From: Anaerolineales bacterium
Lineage (GTDB): Bacteria; Chloroflexota; Anaerolineae; Promineifilales; Promineifilaceae
Assembly: GCA_020432595.1 (NCBI GenBank)
Contig: JAGQGA010000255.1
Span: 1 to 7,546, forward strand
Length of the DNA stretch: 7,546 bases
Direction of reading: 5' to 3'
The translations under genes were made by a program, and so were the position numbers. Each line of letters begins with the position of its first letter. The stretch's first letter is position 1. This document shows positions 218-6,565 of the stretch, piece after piece. The notes under the pieces were generated by a model. That model worked only from the letters and a program-made list of their open reading frames with translations. It did no database searches and was not told where the DNA came from.

Positions 218-712
218 TTAGTTGCTGCTGTAATCGGCCAGCAATTCAGTCATTTGGTTAATCATGGCCTGCTCTTCCAGTGGGCCAATCCAGGTGCGGA
301 TTTCGTTGCCGTCAGGGTCGAGCAAAATGTAGGTGGAGCGGCGGAAAAGCCCCAACTGCTCGCGGATGGTGTCAAACTCGCGCCGATCAATATTGAAGTG
401 GAAAAAATCGGCCTGCTGGTTAAATTCACGTTCAAGCCTATTCACGATAGGCTTATTGTGTTGTCAGGTCGTTCACCAGTCGGCATAGGCAGTGACAAAT
501 TGCGGCCGGCCGGTGCTGGCAACCAGCCTGGGGTCGGGGTTATAGGCGTTGCGGCTGGCGGCGGTTGGCTCGGCGGCAACGGTTGGTTCGGCTGTGGGTT
601 GGGGAGCGATGGTGGGTTCGGCAGAAACGGCCGTTTCTGTACTTGTTGTCCCACACCCAGCCAATAAAAAAAACAAGGCTGGTAAAAACAGAAAACGGAG
701 CAAAACTTTCAT
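218..712 (-). CDS. Selenocysteine-containing (UxxU) thioredoxin-like lipoprotein
   Basis: One continuous minus-strand frame of 164 residues runs from ATG 712 to TAA 220-218 if two in-frame TGA codons (475-473 and 466-464, residues 80 and 83) are read as selenocysteine. Residues 1-20 are a lipoprotein signal ending in the lipobox LAGC (Cys20). A Glu/Thr/Pro/Ala-rich linker follows, then a thioredoxin fold from about residue 68. The active site reads YADW-U-TT-U-QHNKP. Trp79 precedes the first U and Pro88 sits five residues after the second, as in E. coli thioredoxin (WCGPC and Pro40). The later Asp-Gly turn (DPDGNEI) also fits. At the usual cis-Pro site the sequence has Ser126-Thr127 instead. 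A SECIS-like hairpin follows the TGAs. The likely role is extracytoplasmic thiol/disulfide chemistry on the membrane. There is no clear Shine-Dalgarno before ATG 712. A conventional annotation would split this into a truncated lipoprotein and a fragment starting at GTG 445. A decayed CxxC gene is the alternative. Confidence 0.82.
434..454 (-). promoter_or_regulatory. Bacterial SECIS-like stem-loop
   Basis: In the mRNA sense (minus strand) AAGCCUAU (454-447) pairs perfectly with AUAGGCUU (441-434) around a five-base loop CGUGA (446-442). The loop starts 17 nt after the second UGA and 26 nt after the first. The published bacterial SECIS consensus asks for about 16-37 nt from UGA to loop, a stem of several base pairs and a G among the first two loop bases. 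All three are met (second loop base is G). In known systems this hairpin recruits SelB with Sec-tRNA. Here one hairpin would have to serve two UGAs nine nucleotides apart. The stem also encodes part of the protein (Lys-Pro-Ile-Val-Asn-Arg-Leu). Confidence 0.75.
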
Positions 713-1820: not shown

Positions 1821-2849
1821 TTATAGCCCGAACTGCTTAACTTCCACCGCTCCGACTGCCTCTGGACTAAAGTCATCAGGCCAATGTGTATGAATGTTGT
1901 AACGGGCATCGGTTAGGGTTGCACCCATTAAATTGGCTGCTGCCAAGTTTGCCCACAGCAGATTAGCTTGGCTTAAGTTGGCATCGCGTAGGTCAGCTTC
2001 GGCCAGATTCGCCCAGTTCAAATCGGCTTCTTGCAAATTCGCGCCCTGTAGCGTCGTGTTGCTCAGGTTTGCGCCATTCAAAATCGCTTCAGATAGATTG
2101 GCACTGGTGAGGTCTGCAGCGTGGAGCATAGAGCCAATAAGGTTGGCGCGTTGGAGGTTGGCACCTACTAACGTGCTGTCGCTAAAATTAGCCCAATTGA
2201 GCTGTGATTCGGTCAGATTGACATTGGTTAATTCAGCAGCCGTCAGGTCTGCCTGCTTCAAATTGACTTCGCTCAAGTTCATACCAGAGAGGTCGGTAAA
2301 ACTGAGAATGGCATTGGCTAAATTGGTTACTTTGTGGTCTTTGGGTGTTTCGCCAGTCAATAGCATCGGGCGAATTTTTTGCGCCCAGTCGCGGATGATG
2401 TCCCAATTGCGAAAGTCACCATATGGGCCAGTATGGCTGCTCATGAGCATGGTCTGGGTGGGGGCTAAAGCCCCGGCAAACAGCCCTAGCCCAACAGGCT
2501 GAATATCGGGGTCAATTTTGAGAACGGGATCCATGTAGGCAAGAACGGTGCGCCGATTGTCAGCGTTGCGGTTAGCCATGGTTAAGCAGGTGGTGAAGTA
2601 GGCGACGGGTTTGGTGCGTAAGTCGGCCTGGTTTTGTTGCACAAAGGCAACGGCTTCTGGTAACCAACGCCCAACGCGAATGGAGCTGCCAACTACAATG
2701 GCACTGTATGGGGCGGTGGTTTTCATCTCGGTCACAGATTTTACTTCGACGGTTGTGGCTTCTTGGCGTAGGACATCAGCAATTGCTTCGGCAACTTCGG
2801 CAGTGGAACCAGTGCCACTGGCGTAGGCAATTAAAATTCTTTGACTCAT
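1821..2849 (-). CDS. Flavodoxin-domain protein fused to a pentapeptide-repeat solenoid
   Basis: The 342-residue product begins with a flavodoxin fold (about residues 1-165). The first strand and FMN phosphate loop read ILIAYASGTGSTAEVA (SGTGST at 11-16), as in the flavodoxin/HemG-like (protoporphyrinogen oxidase) group. After a short linker, residues 184-318 form about 27 consecutive pentapeptides of the A(N/D)LxX type (GANLQ, EADLN, WANLA and similar), enough for six to seven turns of a right-handed quadrilateral beta-helix. The N-terminal half should bind FMN and transfer electrons. The C-terminal half is a scaffold or interaction surface; pentapeptide solenoids can mimic DNA, but nothing here shows that. 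ATG 2849 has a GAGAGG-type ribosome site upstream. The stop is TAA. It is followed by its own terminator, and no signal peptide or membrane segment is seen, so it is cytoplasmic. Partner and substrate are unknown. Confidence 0.9.
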   Translation of the reverse strand: MSQRILIAYASGTGSTAEVAEAIADVLRQEATTVEVKSVTEMKTTAPYSAIVVGSSIRVGRWLPEAVAFVQQNQADLRTKPVAYFTTCLTMANRNADNRRTVLAYMDPVLKIDPDIQPVGLGLFAGALAPTQTMLMSSHTGPYGDFRNWDIIRDWAQKIRPMLLTGETPKDHKVTNLANAILSFTDLSGMNLSEVNLKQADLTAAELTNVNLTESQLNWANFSDSTLVGANLQRANLIGSMLHAADLTSANLSEAILNGANLSNTTLQGANLQEADLNWANLAEADLRDANLSQANLLWANLAAANLMGATLTDARYNIHTHWPDDFSPEAVGAVEVKQFGL

Positions 2850-2933: not shown

Positions 2934-3404
2934 TCAGGGTTTGGATGGGTCGTTTGTCATGCGCTGGTGTAAAACGGGCAGAAAATAGTCGTGGTCGGCA
3001 ATGAGGGGCGGAACGGCCGTTATTGCCACCCAGAAAAGCTCAAACCAAATCGGCTCACGGCCATCGTTGGTATGGTTCTCTGCGTGAGACCATTGCTCTG
3101 GCGGTTGTTGTAGACACTGTAGATGGAAAAAAGTGCGGTGGTGCAGTTCCAGCTTGCCAAAATCGGACATGTCGCGCTGTTGCTCACCCAGACAAGAGAC
3201 AATTTGCAGCTTTGTCAGCCCCGTTTCTTCCCACGCTTCACGCAGCACGCCAACGGCCGTTTCTTCCCCTGGCTCCAGCGTTCCGGTCGGCACCTGAAGA
3301 CCCGCCTCAGGGAAATCACGATGGCGAAAAACCAGCAGTCGCTGCTGATAGGTGATATAGGCAAAAACTTTGTGGCGAATGGGGAGAGACAGCAGGGATA
3401 CCAC
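2934..3404 (-). CDS. Nudix hydrolase family protein
   Basis: This 156-residue protein carries a complete Nudix box at residues 41-63: Gly41, Glu47, Arg55-Glu56, Glu59-Glu60, Gly62 and Leu63, fitting GX5EX7REUXEEXGU. The glutamates bind the divalent metal used to hydrolyse a nucleoside-diphosphate-linked substrate. The substrate cannot be deduced. The length is typical of a single-domain Nudix enzyme. The start is the GTG at 3404; there is no good ribosome site, so the true start is uncertain. The gene ends with TGA, evidence that TGA is an ordinary stop in this genome. Two AACGGCCGTT copies lie inside it: one encodes Glu-Thr-Ala-Val within the Nudix box, the other Ile-Thr-Ala-Val near residue 128. 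It sits between the VOC gene (a 98-nt gap holding a long inverted repeat) and the flavodoxin fusion. Confidence 0.93.
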   Translation of the reverse strand: MVSLLSLPIRHKVFAYITYQQRLLVFRHRDFPEAGLQVPTGTLEPGEETAVGVLREAWEETGLTKLQIVSCLGEQQRDMSDFGKLELHHRTFFHLQCLQQPPEQWSHAENHTNDGREPIWFELFWVAITAVPPLIADHDYFLPVLHQRMTNDPSKP

Positions 3405-4800: not shown

Positions 4801-4900
4801 TTTAAGTCTCCTTGTTTAAAAACAGGTAAGCTACCCATTCCAGTGGAGGGGGGAATGCGAGGGTCGCAAAGGAATGGTTTGGTGAAAACGAACGGCCGTT

Positions 4901-4954: not shown

Positions 4955-5650
4955 CTATAAAGATGCTAACATGCCATTGGCATATTTGGAATTGCGGGTG
5001 CGCTGGGCAGGAAAGTGAGCCATGATCGCTTCCAGCCGGTCTGCTTGGGCAACCTCGCTTTTGATTTCAATGACGAGCAAATCATCGTTGGGTAACGGGT
5101 GGTGAAAGTTGGGGCGTGGACTGAACTGCTGGTTATAGGCTCGCTGGTCATAATCAAGCGTAGCGCGGATTTGGCCGTCGGGCGTAACGAAGTAGTCGCG
5201 GCGGTATTGGTTAATGAACGTTGGTTGGCTGGCCGCAGCCAGCAGCGGCTGCCAATCTGCGGGAACTTGCTCGTAAAGGGCGGTGAGAATGACCGACCAC
5301 GGTTGGCGCAGGTCAAGCGGGGCGGGTAGGGGAAACCGCTTTTTGCCGCCCACTAAATTGTGCTTGAACTTTAGCTCCAGCGCGGGCTGGATGACGGGGT
5401 TTTGCTGAAAATTGCCATACCAGCGCAGCCGCAGCTTTTGCCGGTCGCTGACCCCAACGATGTTGGCGTTGAGGGCGTTGAGGTGAGGGGTATCGAGGTA
5501 GAGGCTGTTAACGAGGCGGGTGGGGTAAGCAGTGCGGAAGCCGGCCGGGTGCAGCCGTAGCCAGTTGCGGGCGTTGGGGAGCAAACGGCCGTTAACCGCC
5601 ATCTTCAGCTCATAGCGCAAATCCTGATCCATACCTCGATTGTAGGTCAT
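4955..5650 (-). CDS. VTC-domain protein (polyphosphate polymerase-like, tunnel fold)
   Basis: This is a protein of about 231 residues (from ATG 5650) with the pattern of the VTC domain, the catalytic tunnel fold of yeast polyphosphate polymerase. Visible elements are RYELK (12-16), SLYLDTP (49-55), KLRLRWYG (72-79), the ALELKFK strand (Glu92, Lys94), YRRDY (149-153), LDYD (165-168), VIEIK (193-197) and NSKYANG (220-226). The alternating basic and acidic residues are those that line the tunnel and hold phosphate and metal. Bacterial members are usually only inferred to make or bind polyphosphate. The start is uncertain: TTG 5659, ATG 5650 and ATG 5632 are in frame, and an AAGG overlaps the stop codon of the upstream APH gene, which suggests translational coupling. 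No transmembrane segment is present, unlike the eukaryotic complexes. The stop is TAG. Confidence 0.87.
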   Translation of the reverse strand: MTYNRGMDQDLRYELKMAVNGRLLPNARNWLRLHPAGFRTAYPTRLVNSLYLDTPHLNALNANIVGVSDRQKLRLRWYGNFQQNPVIQPALELKFKHNLVGGKKRFPLPAPLDLRQPWSVILTALYEQVPADWQPLLAAASQPTFINQYRRDYFVTPDGQIRATLDYDQRAYNQQFSPRPNFHHPLPNDDLLVIEIKSEVAQADRLEAIMAHFPAQRTRNSKYANGMLASL

Positions 5651-5665
5651 TTTTGCCAAAATGCC

Positions 5666-6565
5666 TTACAAAAATGGATAACGGCGCAGTTGACGCAAGC
5701 ACCAATCATACACCTCTGGCTGCCAATCTTTGCCGTTGGCAAAGTAAAGGCTGTAATAGGTGGTATAAAGAGCTATTTGTTCCAGTGCTTCGCTACCATA
5801 CTCGGCCGCAATAAGCTGCCGCAAAAACTGTTGGTCAGCATCGGTAACGAAATCATAGACGGTGAGAAAGTCGAGTGCCCCGGCCAAATCCATGATCGGG
5901 TCGCCGTTAAGGGTGAGGGGGCTGAAGTCAAAAACGGCCGTTATTTTCCCCCGTTCATCACACATCACATTGGCAAAACAGTAGTCGCCGTGAACGAGGC
6001 GTTTGGGAACGGCCGTTAGCGTTTCTAAACGGCGCAACAAGTCGGCCACAAGCTGGTCAATATTAGGCATGTCCTCGCGCAAAAAGGGGAGCGATTCGCG
6101 CAGGTTGGTTTCCGTGCGCTGCTGCAAAAATTGGAGCCAGGAAACGGCCGTTATGCTTTGCCGCCAGCCCAACAGTTCGCCAAACGGCCGTTCGGGCAGC
6201 ATCACCCGATGTAAATGGGGCAGCACTTCCAGAAAAGAGCGCAGGGCATGTTGCCGCTGTGTTGCATCCAGCGTGGGGAACACCAAACTCATATCCTGCC
6301 CCGGCAGCCGTTTCTCCACGATGTAGCTGCAATCATCCAGGTGCGCCATTTGTTCAATATCAGGCAGGGCAAAAGGAAAAGCATGGCGGTGCAGCTCAGT
6401 ATAGAAATCAGCACTGTCTTGCAGATACGCCATATTGGTATGGTCAAAAATGCGCACCACCTGACCTCGGCCAATGTCATACACACGAGAGGTTGCCCCG
6501 CTGCCCAGAAAAGTTGAGCTGTCTGCCCCAAGGGTTTGTAGAATTTTTTGGTGTGTTGAATGCAT
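5666..6565 (-). CDS. Aminoglycoside phosphotransferase (APH)-family small-molecule kinase
   Basis: The gene encodes 299 residues from ATG 6565; a GTG at 6598 is an alternative, but neither has a strong ribosome site. It shows the kinase-like APH fold: a glycine-rich loop LGSGATSRVY (GSGATS 21-26), the Brenner motif HGDYCFANVM (His192, catalytic Asp194, Asn199) and a metal-binding FDFS (Asp213) followed by GDPIMDLA. At the usual ATP-lysine strand the residue is Arg38 (VVRIF), a known variation in APH relatives. The family phosphorylates antibiotics, choline, homoserine, sugars and other small molecules, so no drug-resistance role should be assumed. Four AACGGCCGTT copies lie between 5933 and 6192, three of them encoding Thr-Ala-Val. 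The VTC gene follows 15 bases after its TAA, so the two probably form an operon. Confidence 0.9.
   Translation of the reverse strand: MHSTHQKILQTLGADSSTFLGSGATSRVYDIGRGQVVRIFDHTNMAYLQDSADFYTELHRHAFPFALPDIEQMAHLDDCSYIVEKRLPGQDMSLVFPTLDATQRQHALRSFLEVLPHLHRVMLPERPFGELLGWRQSITAVSWLQFLQQRTETNLRESLPFLREDMPNIDQLVADLLRRLETLTAVPKRLVHGDYCFANVMCDERGKITAVFDFSPLTLNGDPIMDLAGALDFLTVYDFVTDADQQFLRQLIAAEYGSEALEQIALYTTYYSLYFANGKDWQPEVYDWCLRQLRRYPFL

Follow-up and report, generated by a model that had tools for sequence, protein, structure and literature searches.

Does a frame that carries UGA at both catalytic cysteine positions of a thioredoxin-like gene encode a protein with two selenocysteines (Sec), and how would its two stop codons be decoded? 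The window (the whole stretch of DNA that was analysed, 7,546 nucleotides) contains a minus-strand frame that starts with ATG at 712, comprises 164 codons and ends with TAA at 220-218; its translation shows no in-frame stop other than TGA at codon 80 (475-473) and TGA at codon 83 (466-464). These are exactly the coordinates given in the original prediction, in which the gene had been read as a membrane-anchored thioredoxin lipoprotein with Sec at both sites (UxxU). The gene has the following features:

218..712, minus strand: gene with the 164-codon frame (translation; Pfam Thioredoxin, 29.4 bits)
653..712, minus strand: signal peptide with lipobox LAGC (residues 17-20), Cys20 being the predicted lipidation site (sequence pattern only)
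533..652, minus strand: linker with a high content of Ala, Glu, Pro and Thr, limits approximate (sequence; low structure-model confidence)
248..520, minus strand: thioredoxin domain, residues 65-155
473..475, minus strand: first UGA, codon 80, N-terminal Cys position (UGA in 46 of the 57 relatives read)
464..466, minus strand: second UGA, codon 83, C-terminal Cys position (UGA in 8 of the 57 relatives read)
433..455, minus strand: predicted SECIS hairpin, 9-bp stem 455-447/441-433, loop CGUGA 446-442 (fold, covariation, published rules)
335..337, minus strand: Ser126, where a thioredoxin has its cis-proline, directly before strand 127-131 (alignment, structure model)

The active-site motif of the encoded protein is ADW-U-TT-U-QHNKP, in which the two U correspond to the Cys residues of W-C-x-x-C. 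At the matching site the six cysteine homologues, three from the protein database (P0002-P0004) and three from MAG contigs (L001-L003), contain ADW-C-TT-C-(Q or K)-HN, so that both UGAs are located on the catalytic cysteine positions; the motif that had been proposed, including its proline, was thus exact. When read with C for U, the protein matched the Pfam family Thioredoxin (PF00085) with 29.4 bits (cut-off 23.5), which was its sole Pfam match at E 1e-3, and it has the thioredoxin fold. The claim that the part downstream of the two sites has good thioredoxin features needs one qualification, in that the cis-proline is missing (Ser126). More specific profiles were matched below their cut-offs: the NCBIfam thioredoxin equivalog TIGR01068 with 36 bits (cut-off 96.8) and, weakly and far under the curated cut-offs, TlpA (24.3 of 230 bits) and DsbE (18.8 of 123 bits). 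The peroxiredoxin-like family PF00578 did not match the window protein at 1e-3; at the same threshold it matched 8 of the 58 family members, and Redoxin (PF08534) matched 34 of the 58. The product is predicted to be an exported lipoprotein that is lipidated on Cys20: the lipobox is present and its Cys column is conserved in at least 90% of the 58 rows, the UxxU relative L016 having no lipobox. The membrane anchor of the original prediction is accordingly retained as a reading of this motif only.

Relatives were sought in 396 genomes from the class of G002, 154 from the order of G255 (a set identical to the order of G353) and 56 from the order of G284. In total 57 loci were read, one per genome and from the best 30 matches at most per search, and both active-site columns were found to hold C or U: 8 loci were UxxU (L010, L012, L014, L015, L016, L105, L106 and L107), 38 UxxC and 11 CxxC. 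Before these main counts were made, L001-L003 (the same genes as L089, L011 and L091) and L004 (an ordinary thioredoxin) were excluded, and the counts do not cover the second copies of the family in G506 and G513. The protein searches recovered 3 and 3 relatives only. Among the best 30 matches in 400 genomes of the phylum, 30 loci were obtained, which comprised 23 UxxC, 6 CxxC and 1 UxxU (G284 again); two of this set (L133 and L134) are from genomes that were already included in the earlier counts. Two UxxC loci of the main set (L096 and L098) have Asp replacing the Trp ahead of the Sec codon (SYD-U-STC). The genome of L001 (G001) is labelled Bacteroidetes, yet it lies in the order of G255 together with the Anaerolineaceae-labelled G002, and the label may be wrong.

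The double UGA thus recurs in eight other genomes from two orders, and six of these genomes belong to the order of G284; neither chance nor an isolated error would produce such a recurrence. It had been stated beforehand that TGAs confined to one assembly would speak against a selenoprotein; both are shared by these eight genomes. Over the 81 codons past both sites, dN/dS was 0.06 for the pair L012-L106 and 0.08 for L106-L107 (0.02 for L012-L107, where dS is near saturation; no dS estimate was obtained for the pairs with L014), and these low values imply that purifying selection acts on what is translated beyond both UGAs. In the tree UxxU needs two changes, and the AU test does not reject a topology with one UxxU clade (p-AU 0.229); the tree fits one as well as two origins and we do not claim independent ones.

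A feature that goes beyond the original account is a SECIS-like hairpin at 455-433, which begins eight bases past the second UGA and has a 9-bp stem and the loop CGUGA, the loop being 26 nt away from the first UGA and 17 nt from the second. In the fdhF gene of E. coli the minimal stem begins about 11 nt past the UGA; the conserved 6-bp upper stem of the window hairpin begins 11 nt past the second UGA and 20 nt past the first. The 37-base stretch with the hairpin has a folding energy of -9.5 kcal/mol (z -4.1, none of 200 shuffles being equally good), and z becomes weaker in longer stretches (-3.5, -2.0 and -1.5 for 51, 76 and 141 bases). The available text of PMC13188914 gives a bacterial SECIS model with a loop of 3-9 nt, a stem of 4-16 bp, a G among the first two loop bases, a distance of 16-37 nt between UGA and loop and an energy of at most -7.5, and the window hairpin satisfies all of these rules for both UGAs (a loop of 5 nt, a 9-bp stem, G as the second loop base and distances of 17 and 26 nt). 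An Rfam scan of the window returned four matches, all under the curated cut-offs and none to a SECIS family; the missing Rfam SECIS match is no argument against a SECIS.

The hairpin is distributed over the family in line with the UGAs. Stems with six or more pairs that enclose the fixed loop were found in 9 of the 9 UxxU members (window included), 31 of the 38 UxxC members and none of the 11 CxxC members of the main set, three UxxC members having fewer than five pairs (Fisher p 1.4e-7 for UGA-bearing versus CxxC, not corrected for kinship). Random synonymous codons, with codon usage taken outside the hairpin and stem length as the measure, would yield such stems in 0.27 UxxU, 0.94 UxxC and 0.01 CxxC members, and in 0.0015 for the window alone. 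An energy-based version of the synonymous test, which took its codon usage from the stretches under test, gave a weaker signal (mean z -1.88 for UxxU, -1.31 for UxxC and -0.47 for CxxC), with 4 of the 9 UxxU members in the lowest 5%. Both sides of the stem change in 5 of the 7 pairs (43 cells), a level that none of 500 shuffles reached, and sliding the partner side by 1-3 columns destroyed the signal. The synonymous-codon excess and the covariation together indicate that selection acts on the hairpin structure over and above the encoded protein. With the window included, the 47 rows that carry a UGA can be aligned across 48 columns without a gap, which means that the hairpin lies at a constant distance from the first UGA; in the UxxU members it is unmoved, and the second UGA is nine bases closer to it than the first. 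The later phylum set, which is more distant and stands outside the main counts, contained stems of at least six pairs in 21 of 23 UxxC, 1 of 1 UxxU and 1 of 6 CxxC members; L158 is the CxxC member with a six-pair stem and L161 a UxxC member with none.

One CxxC copy of the main set, L084 (in G440), has retained five hairpin pairs; its genome lacks selA, and the best tRNA-Sec match there scores only 47.7 bits. This hairpin is a probable relic SECIS, left behind after a reversion from Sec to Cys; relics of such reversions have been described for other families, according to the available text of PMC1794560.

Genomes with a UGA copy nearly always encode the machinery for Sec insertion. An over-cut-off selA was found in 43 of these 46 genomes (26/26 and 17/20; G534 and G318 have none and G459 has a fragment) and in 4 of the 11 CxxC genomes (0/6 and 4/5). 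A tRNA-Sec of at least 59 bits was present in 43 of the 46 (lacking in G268, G534 and G318) versus 2 of the 11, and selB, in the subset that was searched for it, in 25 of 26 UGA-copy genomes (not in G203) versus 0 of 6 CxxC genomes. Weaker tRNA-Sec profile matches, near 44-50 bits, are probably tRNA-Ser, which is what ARAGORN called at four such loci. Among the eight UxxU genomes, selA and tRNA-Sec were each found in seven; the one without either, G534, is like the UxxC genome G318, which also has neither, a MAG-like and possibly incomplete assembly. The machinery was also recovered from 12 genomes of the class without a family match (selA in 11, tRNA-Sec in 11, selB in 10), and together with selA in 4 of the 11 CxxC genomes this makes it a common trait, so that the link holds one way. 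As an exclusive marker of UGA copies the machinery is ruled out by the same CxxC genomes and by the 11 of 12 family-less genomes. The nearest row to the window by tree path, at a weakly supported fork, is that of the UxxU genome G529, which contains both selA and tRNA-Sec, and the genome of the window's host likely encodes Sec machinery as well.

Taken together, the two UGAs and the one covarying hairpin, the predicted SECIS for both, make it very likely that the product is a UxxU selenoprotein, a reading supported by the fixed hairpin, by the co-occurrence of CxxC, UxxC and UxxU in one family and by the Sec machinery in nearly all relatives with a UGA copy. Decay of a former CxxC gene by two nonsense changes, or sequencing error, is conceivable in that each UGA is one base away from the Cys codons TGC and TGT and in that errors occur in MAG-type data, but it is already contradicted by the same double UGA in eight other genomes and fits neither the otherwise open frame, nor the dN/dS of 0.06 and 0.08 downstream in UxxU pairs, nor the retained and covarying hairpin; we consider it very improbable. 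The original prediction had likewise argued against decay, on account of the frame kept on both sides and of the thioredoxin features downstream. A reassignment of UGA to a standard amino acid, e.g. Trp or Gly, would also result in an open frame; the in-frame UGAs, however, occur only at the two Cys positions, the Nudix gene of the window terminates in UGA (2936-2934), UGA is a stop in relatives as well (e.g. L015, in a UxxU genome), and the hairpin and the tRNA-Sec pattern also count against it, so that this reading comes close to being impossible. Decoding of a single UGA as Sec, with termination at the other and a short lipoprotein as the main product, or with a restart at GTG 445, deserves somewhat more weight and is still improbable. 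Recoding in E. coli is 30-40% efficient according to the available text of PMC4513850, at which rate two successive events would give little full-length product, and a frame of 75 residues does run from GTG 445, within the hairpin loop; against this, the conserved thioredoxin domain spans both sites as one and the SECIS spacing rule is satisfied by both UGAs.

For the UxxU selenoprotein the following course of events may be envisaged. SelB and Sec-tRNA would bind the hairpin with the ribosome at the first UGA (loop 26 nt off), giving Sec80, and would bind it again with the ribosome at the second UGA (17 nt off), giving Sec83. The product would be exported and lipidated on Cys20, with the linker holding the domain outside the cytoplasmic membrane, and there the Sec pair would work as an oxidoreductase by alternating between the diselenol and the diselenide state. 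Oxidised targets in the cell envelope would most likely be reduced, with electrons supplied by a CcdA/DsbD-type membrane protein. A DsbD/CcdA-type protein is encoded in all eight UxxU genomes; since 25 of 28 genomes have a PF02683 match above the cut-off, this is not specific.

The cis-proline column bears on this chemistry. It contains Ser, Thr or Ala in 29 of the 29 members of the clade of the window, to which all 9 UxxU members belong, and Pro in 29 of the 29 members of the other clade; Arg directly precedes the Ser at this site in 28 of the 29. Since Ser takes the place of the proline, the substrate is probably unlike that of a classical thioredoxin. A more far-reaching reading is that the UxxU selenoprotein has no disulfide-reductase chemistry and that its two selenols either bind a metal or metalloid or act in peroxide reduction. 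The missing proline and the preceding Arg are in its favour, given that the cis-proline may prevent metal binding and that peroxiredoxins have Arg at that place (PMC2757866, in its available part). The fold and the best Pfam match, however, are those of thioredoxin, and 20 of the 29 members of the clade are UxxC or CxxC, which shows that the proline can be missing without UxxU; we regard such chemistry as rather unlikely. A bolder overall picture, which we would put at somewhat less than even, is that in this Chloroflexota lineage two UGAs at a distance of nine bases are decoded by one SECIS, and that the resulting diselenide centre sits in a membrane-tethered thioredoxin fold without cis-proline, constituting a redox or metal site with a chemistry unlike that of any known thioredoxin.

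The surroundings of the gene were inspected as well. The palindrome AACGGCCGTT occurs in 11 exact copies in the 7.5-kb window (0.01 expected), within and between genes:

151-160, 626-635, 1525-1534, 3012-3021, 3252-3261, 4891-4900: copies of AACGGCCGTT
5584-5593, 5933-5942, 6008-6017, 6143-6152, 6183-6192: copies of AACGGCCGTT, continued

It was recovered from 15 of 162 loci, which derive from seven genomes (G170, G386, G136, G529, G522, G318 and G284) that all belong to the order of G284, and it is absent from the loci of G355, G097, G533 and G534 of that order. The shared palindrome makes this order, with its six UxxU genomes, the likely one of the window's host. A conserved operon partner is not supported by the comparison of up to four genes per side of 21 gene copies: the widest neighbour group was a single upstream gene in 6 loci (5 UxxC, 1 CxxC), presumably an F420 ligase from its resemblance by eye, the UxxU loci had shared neighbours only in the close relatives L113, L118 and L119 (on the opposite strand), and none of the neighbours compared was related to the FKBP gene that adjoins the window gene. 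Between the stop of this FKBP gene (766) and the ATG at 712 there is a long hairpin of 13 pairs (723-753), the 3' limit of which is 10 bases short of the ATG and which could be terminator-like or serve to control the selenoprotein gene. Elsewhere in the window (1821-2849, minus strand) one frame joins a flavodoxin domain and pentapeptide repeats.

If the selenoprotein reading is true, a single hairpin must decode two stop codons that are nine bases apart. The presence of CxxC, UxxC and UxxU in one family with a fixed hairpin makes it testable whether one SECIS serves two UGAs, why two recoding events are paid for per active site and what role an extracytoplasmic Sec pair has. Such genes are easily lost in annotation. 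The public protein P0007 (101 residues) has the C-terminus YASW, directly ahead of the first U position; as it stops at the W just short of that position, it probably represents a relative that gene calling has truncated.

Within the literature covered, UxxU in a PF00085-type lipoprotein thioredoxin is new, the earlier UxxU cases in the available texts being from other families. The three UxxU cases in the accessible part of PMC13188914 are a Prx-like oxidoreductase, a metal-binding protein and FmdB, and PMC2398784 has, in what is available of it, UxxU in a Prx-like 2 family. The terms UxxU and thioredoxin are absent from PMC12013277, and no UxxU thioredoxin lipoprotein was found in titles and abstract openings of the selenoprotein literature on Chloroflexi, Chloroflexota or Anaerolineae (supplements and subscription papers excluded), nor any such protein in those of the matches listed for UxxU with selenocysteine or lipoprotein. 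Of the known systems, the selenoprotein thioredoxin (PF00085), given as UxxC with one Sec in the available texts of PMC13188914 and PMC9312934, is similar in its Pfam family, N-terminal Sec and in-gene SECIS, whereas the window protein has a second, C-terminal Sec, a lipobox with linker and Ser for the cis-proline. The Prx-like thiol:disulfide oxidoreductases with UxxC or UxxU (PF00578) and the UxxU Prx-like 2 proteins (PMC2398784, as far as available) are, like the window protein, bacterial UxxU proteins with a thioredoxin fold, but the window protein belongs to another Pfam family, PF00085 being the one that it matches at E 1e-3. SelL, which had been named as the UxxU precedent, is a fair one in that a diselenide bond is described for it in the available part of PMC2397514, and a diselenide pair in a redox motif is predicted for the window protein too; the likeness is by description only, the window protein has no match to the peroxiredoxin-like Pfam families, and SelL is known from aquatic animals and marine bacteria according to the same text. 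The TlpA/ResA/DsbE proteins share with the window protein an extracytoplasmic, tethered thioredoxin fold and weak profile matches, from which it differs by scores far under their cut-offs, by its Sec pair and by the Ser in place of the cis-proline.
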